A stretch of DNA of 38,397 bases from Nitrososphaerota archaeon (lineage in GTDB: Archaea; Thermoproteota; Nitrososphaeria; Nitrososphaerales; Nitrosopumilaceae), in contig JACRJT010000039.1 in NCBI GenBank assembly GCA_016215465.1, positions 1-38,397 of the forward strand, in the 5' to 3' direction. This document shows, one piece after another, positions 36,716 to 38,397 of the stretch. Position 1 is the stretch's first letter. Each line of letters starts with the position of its first letter. Below the pieces are notes generated by a model, which worked only from the letters and a program-made list of their open reading frames with translations, did no database searches and was not told the DNA's origin. Made by a program: the position numbers and the translations under genes.

Positions 36716-37036
36716 ATGAAGAAAGAATATGTCGTAGTTAGAATTGATGCAGCACCAGATGGCGCACCATATGTCATACTATCGTTGTCGCTAACCAAGG
36801 ATTTCAAGGAAAGCAATCAGCCACTCCAGTCTCCATTTGGTGGAGGAGTGATGGGATTTACAAACATGGACGACATGATGAAAAACCTAAACAAAATGTT
36901 ATCCGGTGGAGCATTTGGGGGACAAAGCGGCCTTACATCACTCAAAGTCGACATGCGTGAATACAAGGATCTTGGCATATCAGTTGGCGACAAGGTTTAT
37001 TTGGAAATCTCTAAAGCGGAATTATCTGGTGTATAA
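36716..37036 (+). CDS. Small protein of unknown function with Met/Gly-rich linker
   Basis: A 106-residue soluble protein: KKEYVVVRIDAAPDGAPYVILSLSL, a flexible central stretch with FGGGVMGFTNMDDMMKNLNK, and TSLKVDMREYKDLGISVGDKVYLEI. The two end halves look like strands of one small beta domain. No family is recognised. ATG 36716 lies about 28 bp after a TATA-like ATAAATATT. Its stop is 2 bp from the stop of the convergent ACT-like gene. It could be an adaptor or a chaperone-like protein; that is speculation. Confidence 0.7.
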   Translation: MKKEYVVVRIDAAPDGAPYVILSLSLTKDFKESNQPLQSPFGGGVMGFTNMDDMMKNLNKMLSGGAFGGQSGLTSLKVDMREYKDLGISVGDKVYLEISKAELSGV

Positions 37037-37701: not shown

Positions 37702-37733
37702 AAGAACTTTATCCAGTGTCAGATTTATTAGTC

Positions 37734-37763
37734 TTATGTAATTTTATCTAATAAATTACATAA
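37734..37763. promoter_or_regulatory. 11-bp-arm inverted repeat in the hsp20 divergent promoter region
   Basis: Perfect arms TTATGTAATTT (37734-37744) and AAATTACATAA (37753-37763) with an 8-bp spacer. It lies immediately upstream of both the hsp20 TATA-like element (about 37766-37775) and the ACT-like gene TATA-like element, so a bound factor could act on both. Confidence 0.6.
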
Positions 37764-37778
37764 TCTTTAAATAATGTC

Positions 37779-37791
37779 ATGTATATTACAT
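37779..37791. promoter_or_regulatory. Second ATGTA/TACAT inverted repeat, at hsp20 start region
   Basis: ATGTA-TAT-TACAT is a perfect 5-bp-arm repeat sharing the ATGTA/TACAT half-site with the 37734-37763 repeat. It lies between the hsp20 TATA-like element and its GTG start, where a repressor would block initiation. Confidence 0.5.
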
Positions 37792-37798
37792 ACCTTAG

Positions 37799-38305
37799 GT
37801 GAATATGACAGTGTTATTCGACGACGAATTTGACAGAATCTTCAAGAAAATGTCCAGCTCCTTTATGGATCTAGACAATGTCTTTGAGGAGTCTGAAAAA
37901 TCAGGCAGCACGACTTTTGGTCCATTCTATTACGGTTATTCAATGACCGTTGGACAAGACGGCAAGCCTGTAATAAAAGAATACGGAAACGTAAAGCCTG
38001 GGTTACTCCCAAGCTCAGAATCTAGGGAACCATTAATTGATGCAATTGTTGACGAAAAGGAAAAAACCCTAAAACTGATTGCAGAAATGCCAGGTGTTGA
38101 GAAAAAAGACATCAATGTTGTGGTTGAGGGTAAAACAGTCCATATCGATGCAGAACATGGCGAGAAAAAGTACCACGGCAATGCGCCAATAAGGCACGAG
38201 GTAGATGAGGACTCGGTAAAGGCCACATACACAAATGGAATTTTGGAGCTGGTCTTTAAGCTAAAGGAGCAAAAGCCAAAGGGTAAAACGGTGGAGGTTA
38301 ACTAA
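37799..38305 (+). CDS. Small heat shock protein, Hsp20/alpha-crystallin family (second)
   Basis: A 168-residue Hsp20 with a longer N-terminal region (1-75) than the one at 10320 and an alpha-crystallin domain at about 76-165: PLIDAIVDEKEKTLKLIAEMPGVEKKDINVVVEG, then GEKKYHGNAPI and the closing ATYTNGILELVFKL pattern. Start GTG 37799 (ATG 37805 is possible). It begins an operon with a CDC48-type ATPase 25 bp downstream, so holdase and unfoldase are probably produced together. Two palindromes precede it and fit heat- or stress-related control. Confidence 0.9.
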   Translation: MNMTVLFDDEFDRIFKKMSSSFMDLDNVFEESEKSGSTTFGPFYYGYSMTVGQDGKPVIKEYGNVKPGLLPSSESREPLIDAIVDEKEKTLKLIAEMPGVEKKDINVVVEGKTVHIDAEHGEKKYHGNAPIRHEVDEDSVKATYTNGILELVFKLKEQKPKGKTVEVN

Positions 38306-38330: not shown

Positions 38331-38397
38331 ATGAGTGAAATAATATTAAAAATTGATGAAATTTCCCAACGACATGTTGGAAAGGGCATAGCAGTAA
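38331..38397 (+). CDS. CDC48/VAT-type AAA ATPase (N-terminus only)
   Basis: Only the first 22 codons are in the window: MSEIILKIDEISQRHVGKG and following, which matches the start of archaeal CDC48/VAT N-domains (double-psi barrel). The protein would unfold or remodel client proteins, often for the proteasome. A GGTGA motif at 38320-38324 could serve as ribosome-binding site. Identity is good for so short a stretch, but the rest is outside. Confidence 0.7.
   Translation, partial: MSEIILKIDEISQRHVGKGIAV

Follow-up and report, generated by a model that had tools for sequence, protein, structure and literature searches.

What controls the chaperone genes at the end of this contig, and do the two inverted repeats in front of them take part in that control? 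Close to its end, the window, i.e. the whole stretch of 38,397 nucleotides that was analyzed, carries the ACT-domain gene P0001 (37039-37701, minus strand) and, divergent from it, the small heat-shock gene hsp20 (37805-38305, plus strand; Pfam HSP20, E 9.7e-9), and reading of the sequence places both repeats in the 97-bp intergenic region. The hsp20 ATG at 37805 is conserved in the aligned loci described below, the alternative start being a GTG at 37799. Downstream begins cdc48 (38331-38397, plus strand), which is cut by the contig end but whose 5' part encodes MSEIILKIDEISQRHVGKGIAV and matches the cdc48 starts found behind hsp20 in relatives. A small conserved protein of unknown family (36716-37036) lies downstream of the ACT gene and convergent to it; the same neighbor is present in locus L202 (genome G034).

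A first-pass annotation of this DNA had described the two repeats as using the same half-site, and both exist in the sequence as described. The smaller one, the 13-bp repeat ATGTATATTACAT at 37779-37791, is the inner part of a larger palindrome, here termed operator C, with the sequence ATGTCAT-GTAT-ATTACAT and the consensus ATGTMAT-N4-ATTACAT (37774-37791, plus strand); the half-sites are conserved in relatives, and the site is larger than the repeat first described. By retrieving 80 P0001 orthologues with their flanks, all from Nitrosopumilales-type records, and aligning the upstream regions, we found four conserved blocks, namely TGTCA (half-site A, 37717-37721, plus strand), TTATGTAA (half-site B, 37734-37741, plus strand), the hsp20 TATA box (37766-37773, plus strand; TTTAAATA, consensus TTTATATA) and, directly after the latter, operator C. 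The TATA box of the ACT gene (37724-37731, minus strand; TTTATTAG on the plus strand, consensus TATAATAG) is a conserved block as well, with half-site A just downstream and half-site B immediately upstream of it. The best match to operator C had no mismatch in 61 of the 81 loci, one in 18 and two in 2, and the start codon follows 13 bp past it in 74. None of 5000 shuffles of the intergenic region contained ATGTMAT-N4-ATKACAT. Together with the genome scans below, this makes the predicted operator itself well supported. The first two hsp20 codons (ATGACA, 37805-37810) are practically invariant, third positions included; read on the minus strand, they give one more TGTCAT half-site, and either codon preference or an extra contact could be involved.

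Genome scans confirmed that the motif is not scattered. In the genome under study, exact ATGTMAT-N4-ATKACAT occurs once and the control pattern not at all, and in 17 out of 31 genomes (this one and its relatives) it is present once or twice, as against one control site in total. The directional form ATGTMAT-N4-ATTACAT was exact in 113 of the 136 Nitrosopumilaceae genomes of at least 90% completeness, usually as a single copy, whereas the reversed control pattern had matches in 6 of the 136. Second copies are situated at an unlinked second hsp20 gene (hsp20_2) in five Nitrosotenuis genomes, in four of which that copy is divergent from a thermosome gene, and at a second hsp20 gene also in five genomes of other genera. 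The operator therefore marks small-Hsp promoters beyond the P0001-hsp20 intergenic region. In the genome under study, the operator is absent from all three thermosome genes and from the three remaining hsp20 genes, and a search for the second hsp20 gene type gave no match; the regulon of this genome appears to be the P0001/hsp20-cdc48 locus alone. Palindrome matches with one mismatch in this genome all lie inside open reading frames and were rejected as regulon members, and the extra exact matches in six further genomes, none of them at chaperone genes, look like chance occurrences or repeats.

Two further arrangements were observed during these scans. The gap between hsp20_2 and the thermosome gene in loci L107, L118, L121 and L122 holds extra half-sites resembling site B, i.e. 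TTTTGTAAGAAA beside the thermosome TATA box and ATGTAATTTAAT in the middle. Genome G069 has two near-identical copies of the hsp20-cdc48 promoter (L209 and L210, the latter G069:C6:1-1700), and in one of these the reading frame of hsp20 is interrupted past codon 60, which may be an assembly or strain variant.

The neighboring protein had been proposed as the regulator of both the chaperone operon and itself. AlphaFold models of P0001, which is single-copy in the genome under study, predict an N-terminal part of four helices and, after it, two ACT domains, the pair resembling the regulatory domains of aspartokinase (Foldseek E 1.5e-6). Pfam and NCBIfam gave no confident name: ACT_7 matched below its cut-off (E 7.8e-5), and the N-terminal domain matched DUF7523 (PF24367), a family of unknown function, with 26.3 bits (E 1e-5), likewise short of the required 27. 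That domain had no confident fold match in the PDB, and a profile of 43 P0001 orthologues, searched up to E 10, matched none of the solved chains. As the N-terminal domain has no solved fold relative, its predicted DNA binding is based on a helix-turn-helix-like sequence pattern (NYTALA...NTIVVAIKR) and on co-occurrence with the operator. Paralogues were also found next to genes that resemble those of the arginine pathway, among them argininosuccinate synthase (argG)-type ones (L205:2512-3210 and L206:1993-2709), a hint that amino-acid regulators belong to the family as well; the operator is absent there, and these homologues may be a separate subfamily.

The operator and the P0001 family are associated across genomes. 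Within genus g44, all four genomes with P0001 have the TATA box plus operator and none of the five without P0001 has the operator, although four of these five (G197, G202, G203 and G205) retain hsp20-cdc48. The TATA-plus-operator combination was found in 8 out of 10 genomes with P0001 and in 0 out of 6 without (p=0.007), and hsp20 promoters carried the operator in 7/7 and 1/10 cases, respectively (p=0.0004), in tests that both ignore kinship. Nitrososphaeraceae, a family name that we infer from genome relationships, have a P0001 homologue of about 32% identity and keep the operator at hsp20-cdc48 promoters; in G057 of this group, the homologue is divergent from hsp20-cdc48 and the promoter reads TATATA-ATGTAAT-GACC-ATTACAA. 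The hsp20 genes of g45 retain the operator even though the 1.5 kb around them contain no P0001. In three homologues from other families (L196, L198 and L199), an exact GTAAT-N4-ATTAC precedes the homologue's own gene by 47-60 bp, with 0.1% expected in shuffles. One of these (L196:811-3268, genome G021) is divergent from a thermosome gene, and the 50-bp gap contains CCGTAAT-AAAT-ATTACGG, so that the homologue may act directly on the thermosome there. There were two exceptions, i.e. G043, with the operator but with P0001 not detected, and G257, with P0001 but no operator upstream. Genomes G014 and G068 lack both P0001 and operator but were not counted as co-loss, since the matching hsp20 is missing too and they represent losses of the locus.

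Co-occurrence and the homologue promoters point to the neighboring protein, in agreement with the first-pass annotation, and we assign a probability of roughly 0.68 to P0001 being an autoregulated repressor of the hsp20-cdc48 operon that is bound at operator C. The binder, the sign of the effect (repression over activation) and the signal are what we infer here. Most likely, a P0001 dimer would bind the palindrome ATGTMAT-N4-ATTACAT. Given the usual archaeal spacing between TATA box and start, hsp20 transcription would begin near 37795-37800, placing operator C at about -23 to -6, between the TATA box and the expected start; as it fills this space, a bound dimer would exclude TFB or RNA polymerase. 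The single half-sites A and B could provide weaker autoregulation, as judged from the way they flank the TATA box of the ACT gene. Release might be triggered by heat or a different proteotoxic signal, or by a ligand bound to the ACT domains, the domains themselves suggesting a small ligand and the target genes proteotoxic stress.

The alternative that survives best, though we consider it unlikely, is that a transcription factor encoded elsewhere binds a real operator, while P0001 is a co-regulated neighbor, e.g. an amino-acid sensor. This would fit the operator retained in G043 and the DNA-binding domain being a sequence prediction with no fold confirmation, but it does not account well for the joint loss of operator and P0001 where hsp20-cdc48 remains, for the persistence of the operator where P0001 is unlinked, or for the same core in the promoters of distant P0001 homologues. 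More improbable still is that P0001 binds the operator but activates hsp20-cdc48, for instance by aiding TBP or TFB. Genomes without regulator and operator retain the operon, which would allow either sign; the operator, however, follows the TATA box, and a protein bound at such a position usually blocks polymerase, as Phr does at the start site of the hsp20 promoter (PMC9133787).

The larger repeat bears on a third alternative, namely the earlier proposal that the two repeats are equivalent binding sites of one dimer. It consists of TTATGTAATTT (37734-37744) and AAATTACATAA (37753-37763, plus strand) separated by 8 bp, and a pattern search of the 1.70-Mb genome found TTATGTAA-N6..20-TTACATAA at a single position. 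Inverted repeats with 11-bp arms arose in 9 out of 3000 first-order Markov shuffles of the intergenic region, and the whole window has two of them, compared to 0-2 in six simulations; the repeat is uncommon, but on its own not decisive proof. Half-site B was found in 72 of the 81 loci, starting 40 bp before operator C in 68. The right arm has low information content in the alignment and is exact (TTACATAA) in only 10 loci, and the N14 spacing between half-sites is shared by five Nitrosotenuis loci alone. The large repeat thus appears to be a conserved half-site B with a mostly lineage-specific partner, and the smaller repeat is the more important of the two. The half-site ATGTA/TACAT common to both speaks for equivalence, but the geometries differ (ATGTAA-N14-TTACAT versus ATGTMA-N6-TTACAT), so the repeats are not copies of one dimer site, and we hold this part of the first-pass annotation to be very improbable. 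Least credible of all is a role of the palindrome as nothing more than a strong element of the core promoter or of initiation, or as a leader RNA element: its fixed place directly after the TATA box and ahead of the start codon would suit this, but it occurs in one or two copies per genome, whereas a core element would be common, is absent from other strong promoters, ends before the expected transcription start and is lost together with P0001, and an Rfam search of the window matched no family.

The gain and loss of the operator together with the ACT gene points to a heat-shock-type control system that is, to our knowledge, undescribed in ammonia-oxidizing archaea. These organisms are abundant and difficult to manipulate, and their gene regulation is, as far as we know, poorly understood. 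In a literature search, with most subscription papers outside its reach, no heat-shock operator from Thaumarchaeota came up. At even odds, Thaumarchaeota would have their own switch of this type, in which an ACT-domain DNA-binding family of Phr/HSR1-independent origin recognizes GTMAT-N4-ATTAC and targets small Hsps and Cdc48, extended in some lineages to the thermosome and an additional small Hsp; through its ACT domains, such a protein may couple chaperone expression to an amino acid or other ligand. A predicted 18-bp operator and a predicted binder make the question testable by gel shift and in-vitro transcription.

A 2022 review lists no archaeal heat-shock regulators besides Phr and HSR1 (PMC9133787), which are treated in a paper of 2023 as special to certain Euryarchaeota (PMC10653856). 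Both control the genes of a small Hsp and of an AAA+ ATPase, with the thermosome outside their regulons (PMC9133787, PMC10653856). Like the repressor role proposed for P0001, Phr of Pyrococcus furiosus is a local autoregulated repressor with a site at a small-Hsp core promoter (PMC9133787, PMC10653856), and its targets, a small Hsp and an AAA+ ATPase, correspond to the hsp20-cdc48 operon headed by the operator here and in Nitrososphaeraceae. P0001, in contrast, has ACT domains and no sequence match to solved chains, which would include Phr, and the Phr operator consists of TTTA, TGGTAA and AAAA around the start site instead of ATGTMAT-N4-ATTACAT. HSR1 of Archaeoglobus fulgidus likewise regulates itself, is linked to hsp20 and to a gene for an AAA+ ATPase, and has a palindromic operator (PMC9133787, PMC10653856). 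That operator is CTAAC-N5-GTTAG, however, the HSR1 gene lies inside the operon while the P0001 gene is divergent, and HSR1 is related to Phr and not to P0001. Aspartokinase shares the predicted tandem-ACT fold of the C-terminal half of P0001, which has an N-terminal helical domain in place of the kinase domain. With a different protein family and a different operator, the P0001 system falls outside the Phr/HSR1 class despite the matching targets, and it is best explained as an analogous system built from another protein family.
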